Below, piece by piece: positions 9,876 to 48,142 of a DNA stretch of 64,000 bases. The stretch comes from Synechococcus sp. WH 7805 (GTDB lineage: Bacteria; Cyanobacteriota; Cyanobacteriia; PCC-6307; Cyanobiaceae): contig NZ_CH724168.1 of assembly GCF_000153285.1 (NCBI RefSeq), positions 889,854-953,853 on the forward strand, in the 5' to 3' direction. How positions within the stretch are numbered: the first letter of the stretch is position 1; each line of letters opens with the position of its first letter. The notes below the pieces were generated by a model. That model worked only from the letters and a program-made list of their open reading frames with translations, made no database searches and was not told where the DNA came from. The position numbers and the translations under genes are program-made.

Positions 9876-10730
9876 ATGTCCATCCTGATTTCTCTGGCCC
9901 TTTTCTTCATCATGGTGTCTCTGGGACTCAATCTGCCCAGCTTGCAATTTGACTTGCTTAAACACAGACCCGCTCTAATTGGTCGTGTACTACTCGCCAC
10001 CTGCGCAGCCATGCCCCTGGCAGCATGGCTGCTGCTAAAAACCCCAATGGGACAAGGGCTGTCGCCAGCCATCGCAACAGCAGTGATGCTGATGGCCATC
10101 TGCCCCAGCGCCCCGATGATCGCCTTGAAGAGCAGGAAGTTGGCGAACAACCCTGAACTAGCGACAAGGCTGCAATTCTGGTCAGCTTGCGCTGCCATCA
10201 TCAGCGTTCCGCTCTGGGTCTCTCAGTTGCCAGCTGAAGCGGGGGAAACCATCTGGAGCGTCAACGCCAAGGATGTCGCTCATCAAGTCTTCACCGTGCA
10301 ACTCTTTCCATTACTCCTCGGCGTGTCATTGCGGCGTTGGTGTGCAGACTGGGCTGAACGCTGGAATCCAATTGTTCAGAAATTGAGCAACATTCTTCTA
10401 TTTGTGCTCCTAACCCTAATCCTGGTCGTGGCCTTGCCGAAAGTATCGCCAATGCTGATCGACAACCTCAGAGGTGCACTCGTGATGCTCATCCTCACCT
10501 GGATTGGCCTTGGGCTGGGATATGTCGTGGCAGGAAATAACCAAGTCGAGCGCAGCACCCTGCCCTTGGTGCTTTCCATGCGTAATCCAGGCCTTGCATT
10601 GCTCATCGTTCAAGGCATGGCCCCCAACGCCATCGATCTCAAGGCAGCGGTTGTGGGCTACGTCGTCATTACTGCGGTTGGAACTGCACCATTCATGAAA
10701 TGGCGCAAAACAACTACATCACAAGCATGA
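9876..10730 (+). CDS. BASS-family (bile acid:Na+ symporter-like) transporter
   Basis: 284 aa, almost entirely hydrophobic with about nine transmembrane helices. The pattern fits the bile-acid/sodium symporter superfamily: a Pro-rich crossing motif in the third to fourth helices (MAICPSAPMIALKSRK) and a second discontinuous helix near NPGLALLIVQGMAP in the C-terminal half. Family members import organic anions such as sterol conjugates, pyruvate or other carboxylates with Na+. Being next to sulfatases makes an organosulfate or an acidic product a reasonable guess, but that is inference. It follows the DUF202 gene by 44 bases. Confidence 0.72.
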   Translation: MSILISLALFFIMVSLGLNLPSLQFDLLKHRPALIGRVLLATCAAMPLAAWLLLKTPMGQGLSPAIATAVMLMAICPSAPMIALKSRKLANNPELATRLQFWSACAAIISVPLWVSQLPAEAGETIWSVNAKDVAHQVFTVQLFPLLLGVSLRRWCADWAERWNPIVQKLSNILLFVLLTLILVVALPKVSPMLIDNLRGALVMLILTWIGLGLGYVVAGNNQVERSTLPLVLSMRNPGLALLIVQGMAPNAIDLKAAVVGYVVITAVGTAPFMKWRKTTTSQA

Positions 10731-37587: not shown

Positions 37588-37659
37588 AATCTCAGTCTGC
37601 GGGGTCACGGACCTGCCTGATTCAGAGAAATAGCCTGATGGGGCGGGCACCAATTGGCC

Positions 37660-38190
37660 ATGACAAACAGAAATCCCAACTTCCAGGAGGCAATGGAGAT
37701 CGCCGCCACCTGGTTAAAACAGTGGGACGAAGAGGAGATCAGCGATGAGGTAATGGCTGATCGCGCCGCAGAACTTCTTGCCAGCCGCGACGGAGCCAGG
37801 GGGTTCTTCGTGGTGAGTCTCGCCGGCGAGAGCACTTTGATGGACCGACTGCCTGACGCTCTTGTGATCAAGTTGCGTGAGGCTGGCGACGGGGTGGTGG
37901 ATCTCACTGCACGCAACCTGGCCATGAGCGCGGCGATGGTGGTGCATCACCGCAACAACGGCGATGAGGCGCAAGCCATGGGGTCAGAGCGGGTCAATCA
38001 ACGCTGCACCGAGCTGCTGCGCCAGCTCGACAGCCAGAGAGTCAAGGAGCGACTTGAGACCCTGCTGGAAGCTGCCAGCCACAGCCGTGGCGACGACCTC
38101 AGCTTTCTTGAGCGCTGGGGGTACAACAAGGATCAAAAAGAGGCCATCGGCGAGGCCGTTCATGCCGTAGCAGAGACAGGACGGCCCTAA
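37660..38190 (+). CDS. Conserved-type hypothetical soluble protein
   Basis: 176 aa, ATG at 37660 (a TTG two codons earlier is possible). Largely helical and charged, without signal peptide or membrane segment; acidic near the N-terminus (KQWDEEEISDEVMADRAAELL) and with a central mixed beta stretch (GFFVVSLAGESTLMDRLPDALV). No family was recognised. Divergent from era. The codon use looks like that of the core genes. Confidence 0.7.
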   Translation: MTNRNPNFQEAMEIAATWLKQWDEEEISDEVMADRAAELLASRDGARGFFVVSLAGESTLMDRLPDALVIKLREAGDGVVDLTARNLAMSAAMVVHHRNNGDEAQAMGSERVNQRCTELLRQLDSQRVKERLETLLEAASHSRGDDLSFLERWGYNKDQKEAIGEAVHAVAETGRP

Positions 38191-38250
38191 AACCGTCCAC
38201 GCTAGATCTGGTGTGACTCGCCAGTAAAAAAGCCCGGGGCGTAAAGCTCC

Positions 38251-38426
38251 GGGCCGGGTGATGGGGAAACTTGACCATAGCCAGAGATCCAGTCAAAGAC
38301 CAGCACCACATCTGGTGGCAGCAAAGATGAAGGAACGTTTTGCAGCACTATTAGGCCAATCTGAAGTTGAGACGCATCCCGTAATGAGCGTCCTATCGTT
38401 GTGGTCCGAGGGCCGGGTGATGGGGA
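38251..38426 (+). repeat. 17-bp exact direct repeat pair
   Basis: GGGCCGGGTGATGGGGA at 38251-38267 and 38410-38426, 159 bases apart. Each copy is beside a GC-rich hairpin. Intergenic. Confidence 0.75.
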
Positions 38427-38441
38427 TCAGCCGGTTCGGAT

Positions 38442-38466
38442 CCCGGGAATTCTCCCGGGTTTTTTA
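38442..38466 (+). terminator. Plus-strand Rho-independent terminator
   Basis: CCCGGGA (38442-38448) and TCCCGGG (38453-38459) form a 7-bp stem with a four-base loop, followed by TTTTTTATT. It would end either a small RNA or the 37660-38190 transcript. Confidence 0.8.
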
Positions 38467-38505
38467 TTGCCTGGCTTCGGGTCGCTCCAAAGAACGCACG
38501 GCCAA

Positions 38506-38534
38506 CAAAAAAAACCCGGCTCAAGGCCGGGGTT
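38506..38534 (-). terminator. Minus-strand terminator of the Bax-inhibitor-like gene
   Basis: CCCGGC/GCCGGG stem (38515-38520 with 38526-38531) and an eight-A tract to its left that becomes a U-run on the minus strand, 35 bases past the stop codon of the membrane protein gene. Confidence 0.8.
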
Positions 38535-38568
38535 GCGACAAATCAAGGCCTCGAGCAGGGCGTTCACC

Positions 38569-39303
38569 TCAGTCGCGGCGACCACCACCCTGAAGCGCGA
38601 TCACAAGGCGGAGAATAAAGATGAACAGGTTGATGTAAGTGAGATACATCCCCAGAGCGCCCGCCAAATATTGATCATCCCTGTAGGTGCGAGGCATGGT
38701 GTAAAAGTCGACAAAGGCCATGCCGACGAACAACACGGTGCCGAAACCCGCGATGGCGAGATTGGTTGCGGCGTAGATGCCAGGGATAAAGAAACCGGCC
38801 ACGAAAATGCCGAGCATGGCGATGATCAACCCCATCAAACCGAGGCCCACCACAGCTGTGAGGGCCTGACCCACGCTGTCGCTCATGCGGCGTCCCACCA
38901 CAGAGGCGACCACGAACGTGAGACCTGTGGCCAAAGCTGCGATGCCGATTGAGGCCACACCCGCCACGGCAATCGCTTGCACAACCAGACCGGTGAGCGT
39001 GAAGCCCGTGAGAAGGCTGAACGCCGCCATGAGGGGCAACGCTGTGCCGTTGTTCCCTTTACTGGCCGCATTCTGGGCCACGAAAAACAGAATGAACCAG
39101 GGGATGATCGCGACAAGCGACAACCCGTTGAAGGCCTGAAAGCCGATGGAGGCCATCGTGGCCATACCACCCACAACCCCCGCTGCCGTCAGGGCCATGC
39201 CTCCTCCCACATAAGGGAGGGCCTTGTTCACAACATTGGGGCCGACGAGGGCACTGGATTGTGCCTCGCGGATGGCGTCTTGAAAATTGCTGCTGGCTGG
39301 CAT
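38569..39303 (-). CDS. Bax inhibitor-1/YccA-family membrane protein
   Basis: 244 aa from the ATG at 39303. Seven hydrophobic helices, Gly/Ala/Met-rich, with the family's central segment (LTGLVVQAIAVAGVASIGIAAL is split over helices 3-4) and a charged end of helix 7 (DFYTMPRTYRDDQYLAGALG... LYLTYINLFIFILRLV pattern). Bacterial members are thought to be Ca2+-leak or stress-related proteins interacting with FtsH or other membrane partners. It is the last gene of the ffh-rpsP-phoH run (gap 52 bases) with its own terminator. Confidence 0.85.
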   Translation of the reverse strand: MPASSNFQDAIREAQSSALVGPNVVNKALPYVGGGMALTAAGVVGGMATMASIGFQAFNGLSLVAIIPWFILFFVAQNAASKGNNGTALPLMAAFSLLTGFTLTGLVVQAIAVAGVASIGIAALATGLTFVVASVVGRRMSDSVGQALTAVVGLGLMGLIIAMLGIFVAGFFIPGIYAATNLAIAGFGTVLFVGMAFVDFYTMPRTYRDDQYLAGALGMYLTYINLFIFILRLVIALQGGGRRD

Positions 39304-39355
39304 AACGCCCCAGATCACTGGAATCATCCTGCCAGCTGCAACAGGGTTGTGGGAT

Positions 39356-40387
39356 CTACCTCGGTGCGGATCTCCCCATCGAGCGTCGCGCGGGAGGACC
39401 CTCCCGGCGGGGATGGGTTTTGTCACGACGGGCATAGGCCTCCACTACCCGCTGGACGAGGGGGTGACGCACCACATCGGCGGCTGTGAGGCGGCAGACC
39501 GCCACACCCTCCACGCCATCGAGCACCTCGGAGGCTTCCACCAAACCACTCAGCTGTCCTGGTTGGAGGTCCACCTGGGTGATGTCACCGGTGACCACCA
39601 TGCGCGATCGCTCCCCCAAACGGGTCAACACCATGCGCATCTGAGCCGGCGTGGTGTTCTGAGCCTCATCGAGGATCACGAAGGATTCCGCCAGCGTGCG
39701 GCCGCGCATGTAAGCCAGCGGGGCCACTTCAATCACCCCTTTTTCAAGCATTGCGGCCGTTTTTTCGGGGCCCAGAAGCATGTGCAACGCGTCGTAGAGA
39801 GGCCTCAGGTAGGGATCCACCTTCTGCTGAAGGTCTCCGGGAAGAAAGCCCAGTCGCTCTCCGGCCTCCACCGCAGGCCTGGTGAGCACCAATCGCTCCA
39901 CTTTGCGCTCCGTGAGCATGCGCACGGCCAGGACCGTGGCCAAGAACGTCTTGCCTGTGCCCGCTGGCCCGAGAGCAAACGTGAGATCGTTGCGCTCCAT
40001 CGCCTCCACGTAGGTCTTCTGACGCAACGTGCGCGGACGTAACAGTGCACCCCGTTGATTTTTGGCCAGCACCTGCTGACCCATGGCGTCATGCTCGCGA
40101 TCACGCCCTGTGTCAAGGGCCTGCAAAGCGGATTGCAGATCCACCTGAGAGATCGGCTCACCCGCCTGCCAAAACTTGCGGAGCAACTCCACCGTTGCGG
40201 CCGTGCGCTCCAACTGGCTTGGACGGCCTTGGATCACCAGCTGCAATCCGCGAATCACAAGAGATGAACCCGTCAGAGCCTCCAATTGCCGGAGGGTCTG
40301 ACCAGAGGGGCCACCTGCGAGAGCAAGAGCGGCTTCCGTGTGGGGTAAGTCAAAGACGAAGCAACCGTCTGAGGCAGCCTCGGACAT
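39356..40387 (-). CDS. phoH: PhoH-family ATPase
   Basis: 343 aa. Walker A is FALGPAGTGKTFLATVLAV; the PhoH core continues with VLTRPAVEAGERLGFLPGDL, the Walker B-like VILDEAQNTTPAQMRMVLTRLG and VVTGDITQVDL. The N-terminal 110 residues include a KH-like domain. The family are ATPases/helicase-like proteins linked to RNA metabolism; despite the name, phosphate control cannot be assumed. The start is eight bases from rpsP. Confidence 0.92.
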   Translation of the reverse strand: MSEAASDGCFVFDLPHTEAALALAGGPSGQTLRQLEALTGSSLVIRGLQLVIQGRPSQLERTAATVELLRKFWQAGEPISQVDLQSALQALDTGRDREHDAMGQQVLAKNQRGALLRPRTLRQKTYVEAMERNDLTFALGPAGTGKTFLATVLAVRMLTERKVERLVLTRPAVEAGERLGFLPGDLQQKVDPYLRPLYDALHMLLGPEKTAAMLEKGVIEVAPLAYMRGRTLAESFVILDEAQNTTPAQMRMVLTRLGERSRMVVTGDITQVDLQPGQLSGLVEASEVLDGVEGVAVCRLTAADVVRHPLVQRVVEAYARRDKTHPRREGPPARRSMGRSAPR

Positions 40388-47200: not shown

Positions 47201-48142
47201 TCAGAACGTGGGAGCTACCCGGCGCGTCAAATTACGAAGTTTGCGCAAAGCCTTGAGCTCAACTTGACGCACTCGCTCGCGAGACACGTCGAGAAGCCGG
47301 CCGATTTCCGCCAACGTATGTCGTTCATTGCCATTCAGGCCGAAACGCAGCGTGAGAACGTGCTGTTCCTGATCACTGAGGTGGCTCATCCAACGACCGA
47401 GCTGCTCGTGATGAATACGTTGCTCCACTCGGTCGAGAGGCTCCTCAAGGGATGAATCAGCGATCAGGTCTCCAAGGAAACTGCGACCCTCCTCCCCATT
47501 CACCGGTGCATCAAGGCTGCTGGTGGTGAGCGCCTGCCTGAGCAGGGAATCAAGCTCCTCAACGGGCATATCCATCGCCTCGGCGATTTCGAGGCGGCTT
47601 GGCATGGCTCCAAGCTTATGAGCCAAATCCAAACTGACCTTGCGGATGCTGGTGAGACGTTCGCTGAGATGAACTGGTAAACGGATCGTCCGCGATTGAC
47701 AAGCAATGGCTCGGGTCATGCTCTGGCGAATCCACCAGAAGGCATAAGTCGAAAATTTATAACCGCGGGTGGGATCAAATTTTTCAACCGCACGCTCAAG
47801 ACCGAGAGATCCTTCTTGTATCAAATCGAGAAGCTCTAGACCTTTGCCCTGATACTTCTTGGCGACGCTAACCACCAATCGAAGATTGGCTTTCATCATC
47901 CGCTGCTTGGCACGCTGGCCTACCCGAATCAAGCGGCGCTGCTTGCTATCAAAAAGCTCGCTATCCGCTGCGATCGAACCATCTTCAGTGAGCTGCATCA
48001 ACTTCTGAACTTGGTTTCCAAGCTCAATTTCCTCGGCGGGCGTCAGTAACGGAATTCTTCCGATCGTTGCGAGGTACCAACTGATTGGATCACTGCTTCG
48101 TCGTCTTTGGGTTTCAGAAACCCCGGCTGCGGCTGAGGGCAT
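47201..48142 (-). CDS. Group 2 RNA polymerase sigma factor (RpoD-like)
   Basis: 313 aa. Region 1.2 (SDPISWYLATIGRIPLLTPAEE), region 2 (ANLRLVVSVAKKYQGKGLELLDLIQEG and YKFSTYAFWWIRQSMTRAI), region 3 (RKVSLDLAHKLGAMPSRLEIAEAM) and region 4.2 (TLAEIGRLLDVSRERVRQVELKALRKL) are complete, while the long region 1.1 of the principal sigma is missing. It should direct alternative promoters in stress or nutrient change; the type (SigB/C/D/E) cannot be named safely. Confidence 0.92.
   Translation of the reverse strand: MPSAAAGVSETQRRRSSDPISWYLATIGRIPLLTPAEEIELGNQVQKLMQLTEDGSIAADSELFDSKQRRLIRVGQRAKQRMMKANLRLVVSVAKKYQGKGLELLDLIQEGSLGLERAVEKFDPTRGYKFSTYAFWWIRQSMTRAIACQSRTIRLPVHLSERLTSIRKVSLDLAHKLGAMPSRLEIAEAMDMPVEELDSLLRQALTTSSLDAPVNGEEGRSFLGDLIADSSLEEPLDRVEQRIHHEQLGRWMSHLSDQEQHVLTLRFGLNGNERHTLAEIGRLLDVSRERVRQVELKALRKLRNLTRRVAPTF

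Follow-up and report, generated by a model that had tools for sequence, protein, structure and literature searches.

Bacterial small RNA (sRNA) sponges, or target mimics, are decoy RNAs that copy a target site and thereby capture the regulator. The closest described parallel to the locus analyzed here comes from Prochlorococcus, in which Yfr1/Yfr10 and Yfr2 (Cyano-1, RF01701) are, as described in PMC6778093, two sRNA families with complementary conserved motifs that lie side by side in some strains; according to the same source, Yfr2 counteracts the pairing of Yfr1/Yfr10 with an mRNA. Our locus lies in a stretch of 64,000 nt of Synechococcus sp. WH 7805 DNA (hereafter, the window) and is predicted to encode two RNAs, ANTI and SENSE, likewise with complementary motifs. 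The Yfr1 motif differs, however, being ACUCCUCACAC (PMC2518516), whereas the ANTI tail reads UCCCCAUCACCC and the SENSE motif GGGCCGGGUGAUGGGGA, and membership in Yfr1/Yfr10 was rejected on these grounds. Membership in Yfr2 was rejected as well: the RF01701 model finds two loci in the genome, neither of them in the window, with no match at the gathering level in the window and none in 38100-38650 at E values up to 10. When the window and nine related loci were compared with Rfam 15, only tRNAs scored at the gathering level, and the subthreshold matches were taken as chance.

Two predicted divergent RNAs in a 378-base interval

The interval extends between the stop codons of two genes, a 178-aa ORF without a Pfam match (37654-38190, plus strand) and a Bax1-I family gene (38569-39435, minus strand). 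As the initial annotation had reported, it contains two exact copies of a 17-mer, GGGCCGGGTGATGGGGA, both on the plus strand as DNA, at 38251-38267 and 38410-38426. These are no chance pair, because the whole 2.63 Mb genome has 7 copies at up to two mismatches and none of a reversed control pattern; within the window, 3 matches were found at up to three mismatches, versus 0.34 expected from shuffling.

The right-hand copy (38410-38426) would belong to the SENSE RNA, a decoy predicted to be ~60 nt long (38406-38465, plus strand), in which the motif sits in a hairpin with a GGGG tetraloop and is followed by an intrinsic terminator (38442-38465). The plus-strand terminator proposed for this side was recovered by the terminator scan as a stem at 38442-38459 followed by TTTTTT, the scan of the window yielding 3 terminator-like sites against 1.8 expected from shuffling. 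The segment 38406-38466 folds at -33.4 kcal/mol (z -3.24), and none of 200 shuffles folded as well. A -10 element, TATCGT, is placed at 38394-38399, and its counterparts at the same place in orthologous loci read TACTGT (L054), TACCGT (L063), and TAGTCT (L072). The start is predicted on the plus strand shortly upstream of GGCCGGGUGAUGGGG; a longer RNA might instead begin near the conserved AATCTGAAG (38358).

The left-hand copy (38251-38267) is assigned to the other class. The predicted ANTI RNA (38226-38267, minus strand) is 42 nt long and consists of a single-stranded 5' tail, UCCCCAUCACCC, a terminator hairpin, and U6; its fold, at -16.7 kcal/mol, leaves 12 nt of the tail free. The predicted start, 38267, is the first U of the tail, and a -10 element, TATGGT (38274-38279, minus strand), precedes it by 6 nt, occupying positions -12 to -7. 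The minus-strand terminator on this side (38226-38256), also anticipated in the initial annotation, comprises a stem and U-run that fold at the same -16.7 kcal/mol, with 6 of 200 shuffles as good. It is missing from the terminator scan because the stem has a mismatch, and in our reading of the alignment its pairs are preserved through two-sided changes in the orthologous loci L037 and L067. A palindromic box, CACCACATCTGGTG (38304-38317), centered at about -43 of the ANTI start, is a candidate transcription-factor site, and a second palindrome, ACGCTAGATCTGGTGTGA (38199-38216), has a perfect form, CACACCAGATCTGGTGTG, in L037. A sigma-70 promoter scan found nothing, with 0.5 sites expected. Just behind the Bax1-I gene, a further minus-strand terminator (38508-38531) was found, which the initial annotation had not separated out.

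The left copy is the template strand of its own RNA, and the two RNAs have complementary motifs rather than the same motif. The earlier idea that the repeat is a common seed had to be abandoned, since the RNA of the left copy would be transcribed in the opposite direction and contain UCCCCAUCACCCGGCCC, which is the right copy in reverse complement. By sequence, a small-RNA locus holds up, with a short structured RNA that would terminate on the right-hand side, and of the two roles offered for the repeat, seed and promoter element, the former comes closer. The interval seems to encode two divergent RNAs able to pair with each other, the predicted pair being complementary over 17 nt. Probably, the locus encodes two very small RNAs on opposite strands, one able to pair with a start codon through the core of its motif as a seed and the other a mimic that possibly soaks up the first. 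Among orthologous loci, L037 and L067 retain both ANTI and SENSE, and L054, L063, and L072 retain SENSE without ANTI.

A dispersed motif with two opposite classes of copies

Searching for the repeat in other genomes, as had been proposed, revealed that GGGCCGGGTGATGGGGA is a member of a dispersed family, with the motif present in 333 of 400 genomes of the picocyanobacterial family and in 223 of the 251 good-quality ones. The 31 same-genus rows of this survey hold 180 motif matches in sum, versus 2 for the control. In a survey of 60 genomes at up to one mismatch, the motif was found in the genome of origin and all 36 same-family relatives; 8 of 23 genomes from other families had one match each, and the reversed control gave 3 matches in 2 of the 23. 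Matches of the exact 16-mer listed for named records include Prochlorococcus, Cyanobium, and Synechococcus; the other organisms among them were taken as chance. One viral scan found the motif in 26 viral contigs.

We classified 169 distinct copies from 160 picocyanobacterial loci, grouped into 95 context clusters with one representative each; noncyanobacterial matches, loci L008-L012, and viral loci were left out. A copy was marked SENSE if followed by T[CT][AG] able to close a stem around GGGG, and ANTI if an A-run, i.e., a U-run on the other strand, lay within 40 nt before it, a test that 16% of random places pass. Of the 95 clusters, 52 carried only the ANTI mark (minus-strand U-run), 38 only the SENSE mark (closing GGGGATYR), 2 both, and 3 neither; the 52 include L006, a copy later discarded. 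The opposite-strand RNA of the ANTI class consists of UCCCCAUCACCC plus a terminator, with a median length of 43 nt, and every base of the 12-nt tail is unpaired with a mean probability of at least 0.97 (51 of the 52 clusters folded). In the SENSE class, the best fold displays the GGGG tetraloop in 36 of 40 clusters, and an own-strand U-run follows within 95 nt in 26 of the 38 SENSE-only clusters, compared with 32% of random places.

In both classes, promoter-like boxes lie where they would be expected. The -10-like pattern.A...T, 4-9 nt before the tail, accompanies 33 of 43 higher-GC ANTI clusters (shuffled mean, 13.3), and the plain pattern was not enriched in low-GC ANTI clusters (4 of 9 vs. 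4.5). For SENSE, the pattern TA...T, located 7-14 nt upstream of the motif, accompanies 18 of 30 free clusters (shuffled mean, 6.1; maximum, 13) and 2 of 10 clusters located in a gene leader (see below; shuffled, 0.8). The classes co-occur: all 24 genomes tallied, namely those with two or more fetched copies, hold at least one ANTI plus at least one SENSE or leader copy. Among the nine genus-g41 genomes of the tally, six have exactly one of each; an additional copy is present in G167 (unclassified), in G185 (ANTI), and in G397 (SENSE, missed by the tally). Of 27 Prochlorococcus-like genomes searched at up to one mismatch, 4 contain just one motif copy and one, G305, has none. In G305, ANTI (L483) and the sigma-factor start described below (L486) are kept, and a 14-mer search at up to one mismatch found no SENSE. 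The same search gave 10 matches in G061, none belonging to either class, and G097 has ANTI and a SENSE leader alongside an altered sigma start.

Several copies stand apart. Those inside a histidine kinase-like gene (L004) and directly behind a DUF2256 stop codon (L006) were dropped as chance. In the genome of the window, a Yfr2 gene (RF01701; G000:C2:194112-194181, minus strand) lies ~230 bp from a two-mismatch motif copy directly behind a DUF2256 stop, with a box-like palindrome, CACCGCATGTGGTG (194030), between them. The variant copies L045, L058, and L066 (TGTTGGGGA or TGATGGGAA) are followed by terminators, lack the GGGG-closing sequence, and are unclassified. At ~1501 of L003, an ANTI copy is located between a Glycos_transf_3 gene, which we read as trpD, and a DUF3288 gene, and similar loci recur in the other Synechococcus and Cyanobium-type genomes looked at. 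In high-light Prochlorococcus, SENSE copies (L246, L109, L087) adjoin small genes named from their sequences as ABM-like or DUF3303-like.

The leader class of copies precedes a DUF565 gene, which we take to be of the Ycf20 type, together with a pyridine-nucleotide oxidoreductase gene, and the gene preceding this leader has an ANTI copy at its end in several genomes. We read the oxidoreductase as NDH-2; among the 25 NCBIfam families listed for it, none scored above its cutoff. A palindromic box (YACYA-N4-TRGTG, one substitution allowed, a pattern drawn up after examples had been seen) is found near 14 of 52 clusters of the ANTI class, 21 of 30 of the free SENSE class, and 9 of 10 of the leader class, versus 42 of 2162 background windows (1.9%); 38 of the 52 ANTI clusters are without it. 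Of the 18 box matches at ANTI copies, 9 lie at -41 to -44, 8 at -76 to -84, and 1 at -34; of the 25 at free SENSE copies, 10 lie at -50 to -59 from the motif and the rest further upstream (partly the neighbor's box) or closer; and 8 of the 10 leader matches lie at -29 or -30. In the window, the box occurs only at the ANTI position. Presumably, a transcription factor acts on this box.

SENSE-like copies were also found in viral sequences. Eight IMG/VR contigs (L208, L209, L212, L215, L217, L218, L221, and L227) plus L390, all resembling tailed phages, share a conserved noncoding hairpin with GGGTGATGGGGATTACC, and in the five whose stretch reaches a terminase-like ORF (L208, L209, L212, L218, and L227; the assignment Pfam-checked for L212), the hairpin lies upstream of that ORF. 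This hairpin may act as a decoy or belong to a packaging site. A search of named phages with the 30-nt SENSE hairpin gave 13 records, no cyanophage among them, and the noncoding element had no match in named phages at an E value of 0.01. The terminase matches 2206 named records, of which the best 20 are mostly from cyanophages at 27-28% identity, and it has 2 weak matches in 300 genomes of the putative host family. A contig classed as viral (L295) has an ANTI-like copy at position 10681 with Prochlorococcus-type upstream sequence; viral matches to the ANTI pattern number at least 120, and the others among the 120 inspected were judged by eye to be chance or coding.

The start codon of an rpoD4-type sigma-factor gene

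The 11-mer core, GGTGATGGGGA, occurs 8 times in the genome of the window: two occurrences are in the window, one is in the DUF565 leader, four are within ORFs, and one spans the start codon of a sigma-factor gene (TIGR02997, 389.5 bits; cutoff, 384.5), which reads GGGTG-ATG-GGG-ATC-CCT-CTG. Positions -5 to +7 of this rpoD4-type start (GGGTG-ATG-GGGA) form an exact complement to the 12-nt tail of ANTI. The string GGTGATGGGGATHCC was found once each in 23 of 25 same-genus genomes, the two without it being 70% and 80% complete, and in none of 15 genomes from other families; the control gave 0. To avoid selection by the motif, orthologues were sought by protein. All 20 found in the same genus have the motif at the start, and it is absent at 10 more distant sigma loci. 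Across 15 other genera, including AT-rich Prochlorococcus, the core lies at the start codon in 20 of 22 genomes. The exceptions are G097 (GGGGTGTGGGG) and G061, whose best match, at only 63% identity, could represent a different sigma gene.

Conservation at this site extends to synonymous positions. Codons 2, 3, and 5 alone among the 210 invariant degenerate residues of 36 orthologues show no synonymous variation, and positions -7 to -1 are invariant; the hairpin at the sigma start could by itself account for these frozen codons. These 36 comprise all 20 same-genus genes and 16 further protein-found loci (L460-L475), the search string GTGATGGGGAT having lost none; outside the set are four Cyanobium-like orthologues with ATG-GGG-ACA and the exceptions G097 and G061. 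The in-frame stops confine the sigma start to this position: in 26 of 40 orthologues, the stretch from the upstream stop to the ATG offers no alternative in-frame start except the GTG directly before the ATG.

The gene was identified as PMM1697 (rpoD4) of strain MED4 by the published forward primer, which matches two genomes exactly (L472 and L474; the reverse primer has 4 and 2 mismatches, respectively), whereas the rpoD8 primers had no match within 5 mismatches in 11 sigma loci (both primer sets from PMC2921402). The published MED4 primer coordinate is 746, versus 686 here, and thus, the MED4 start may be annotated 60 nt upstream. In MED4, PMM1697 is described as cycling over the day and rising under nitrogen depletion (PMC2663038, PMC2758279). 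It is also listed among six Yfr1 targets (PMC3142192), so that the Yfr1 and ANTI/SENSE systems could meet at this sigma gene. The window itself contains a paralogous sigma-factor gene (~47222-48118, minus strand; G000:C2:937075-937971) that is 56% identical to the rpoD4-type protein.

A candidate antisense/decoy circuit and its relation to known systems

These features suggest an antisense/decoy circuit, common to picocyanobacteria, in which ANTI would block translation of rpoD4-type mRNA and SENSE RNAs would act as decoys, a reading to which we assign a probability of roughly 0.7. ANTI would be little more than a bare seed and a terminator, its free tail pairing with GGGUG-AUG-GGGA of the mRNA and thereby blocking the start codon. 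SENSE would mimic the start region of the sigma gene (GGCC-GGGUGAUGGGGAUC) with GGGG presented in the hairpin loop and, by virtue of this copy, could capture ANTI and free the sigma mRNA. The two classes lie on opposite strands, are complementary, and are conserved; we infer that both are transcribed, that ANTI represses and SENSE relieves, and that the decoy competes effectively with the mRNA. ANTI is complementary to the start region of a conserved mRNA, and this complementarity is itself conserved, as would be expected of a trans-acting sRNA; SENSE, as a sponge would, carries the site of the target, complementary to the sRNA seed over 17 nt in the window.

In rpoD4, UCCCCAUCACCC pairs with all of GGGUGAUGGGGA. 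Orthologues with GGCCA gain a GGCC-GGCC pairing after a one-base bulge, the sigma gene of the window's genome having TTCA at this place, and SENSE has GGCC-GGGUGAUGGGGAUC without the bulge. The raw duplex with ANTI is stronger for SENSE (-53.9 kcal/mol) than for the genome's own sigma start (-34.6 kcal/mol). After unfolding costs, the values are -13.8 for SENSE, -15.4 for the own sigma start, and -10.0 kcal/mol for the consensus sigma start (the sigma values computed without shuffles), so that the decoy is not favored over the own sigma start despite its stronger raw duplex. Net energies are better than the shuffled means and not always better than every shuffle: against the best of 100 shuffles, SENSE reaches -13.8 vs. 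-12.7, the leader -10.6 vs. -12.6, and the phage hairpin -11.3 vs. -11.7 kcal/mol. Where ANTI varies at motif positions 6-8, its RNA mostly has U in place of C (17 of 177 cells vs. 3 of 132 in SENSE), which keeps G-U pairing; pairing is lost through some other changes, namely those at position 17 (5 of 59) and the C to T changes at position 5 (12 of 59).

CsrB and RsmZ are sponge RNAs that titrate a protein, and the GGGG hairpins at the sigma start and in the DUF565-gene leader, SENSE RNAs, and phage RNA might similarly be sites for an RNA-binding protein, with SENSE titrating the protein and ANTI silencing the sponges. We consider this unlikely. The hairpin common to the folded SENSE-type elements (36 of 40 clusters), with its purine loop, fits such a role, and sponging of a GGA-type protein is discussed for Yfr2 in PMC2662882. 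Yet, according to the same source, no homologues of RsmA/RsmE could be found in cyanobacteria, and the four Cyanobium-like orthologues read GGGGACACC, not GGGGATCCC, at the sigma start, retaining the 12-nt complement of the ANTI tail while the GGGG tetraloop is absent in both of those folded.

The polarity of the circuit could also be reversed, with the SENSE RNAs as regulators, ANTI as their antagonist only, and the match at the sigma start without effect on that gene. The SENSE copies are conserved too and occur in the leader before the DUF565 gene, but G305 retains both the sigma start and ANTI although a search at up to one mismatch found no SENSE there, and synonymous sites are frozen at the sigma start, making reversed polarity distinctly improbable. 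An ordinary dispersed repeat or DNA-level protein site, beside terminators by chance, would suit the palindromic box at recurring distances from many copies and is very improbable, given that strand-specific terminators, -10-like boxes, and the hairpin-closing sequence divide the copies into two classes and that the core also occurs at a start codon. A type I toxin-antitoxin pair was rejected: with the ends as predicted, the 42- and 60-nt RNAs do not overlap, and neither contains a listed ORF (at least 50 aa).

In a wider version of the antisense/decoy circuit, which we regard as doubtful when taken as a whole, three parts (the ANTI repressor, multicopy decoys mimicking a start codon, and the rpoD4 mRNA together with the DUF565-oxidoreductase leader) would set an alternative sigma factor across picocyanobacteria, and an uncultured phage group would have taken up its own decoy near the terminase to release that sigma factor during infection. 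Picocyanobacteria are the most abundant photosynthetic bacteria of the ocean. If the circuit is real, a very small seed-plus-terminator sRNA with dedicated decoy genes controls a group 2 sigma factor at its start codon in Prochlorococcus, Synechococcus, and Cyanobium, which would suggest that a start codon itself can serve as the copied site. Two unannotated RNAs, and perhaps a phage RNA, are thereby offered a falsifiable target.

Our literature searches found no description of the ANTI/SENSE pair, and a search by sequence words gave, among the matches listed, none on cyanobacteria by title. Two further picocyanobacterial RNAs invite comparison. Yfr103, as described in PMC5069720, is a multicopy noncoding RNA that has an imperfect palindrome between positions -29 and -58 relative to the start, resembling the box position here; compared by description rather than sequence, it differs in length (290-328 nt, versus the predicted ~42 and ~60 nt; PMC5069720). 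Yfr19 of MED4, compared by its entry in the table of PMC2518516, has a similar map position and strain list. The proposed pair differs from sRNA sponges in general in that a single interval would contain decoy and regulator as divergent genes, that the regulator would amount to no more than a seed with its terminator, and that a sigma-factor start codon is what the decoy imitates. Since complementary sRNA pairs are known from Yfr1/Yfr2, the kind is already familiar; the new parts are the target, the mimicry of a start codon, and the seed-plus-terminator form.
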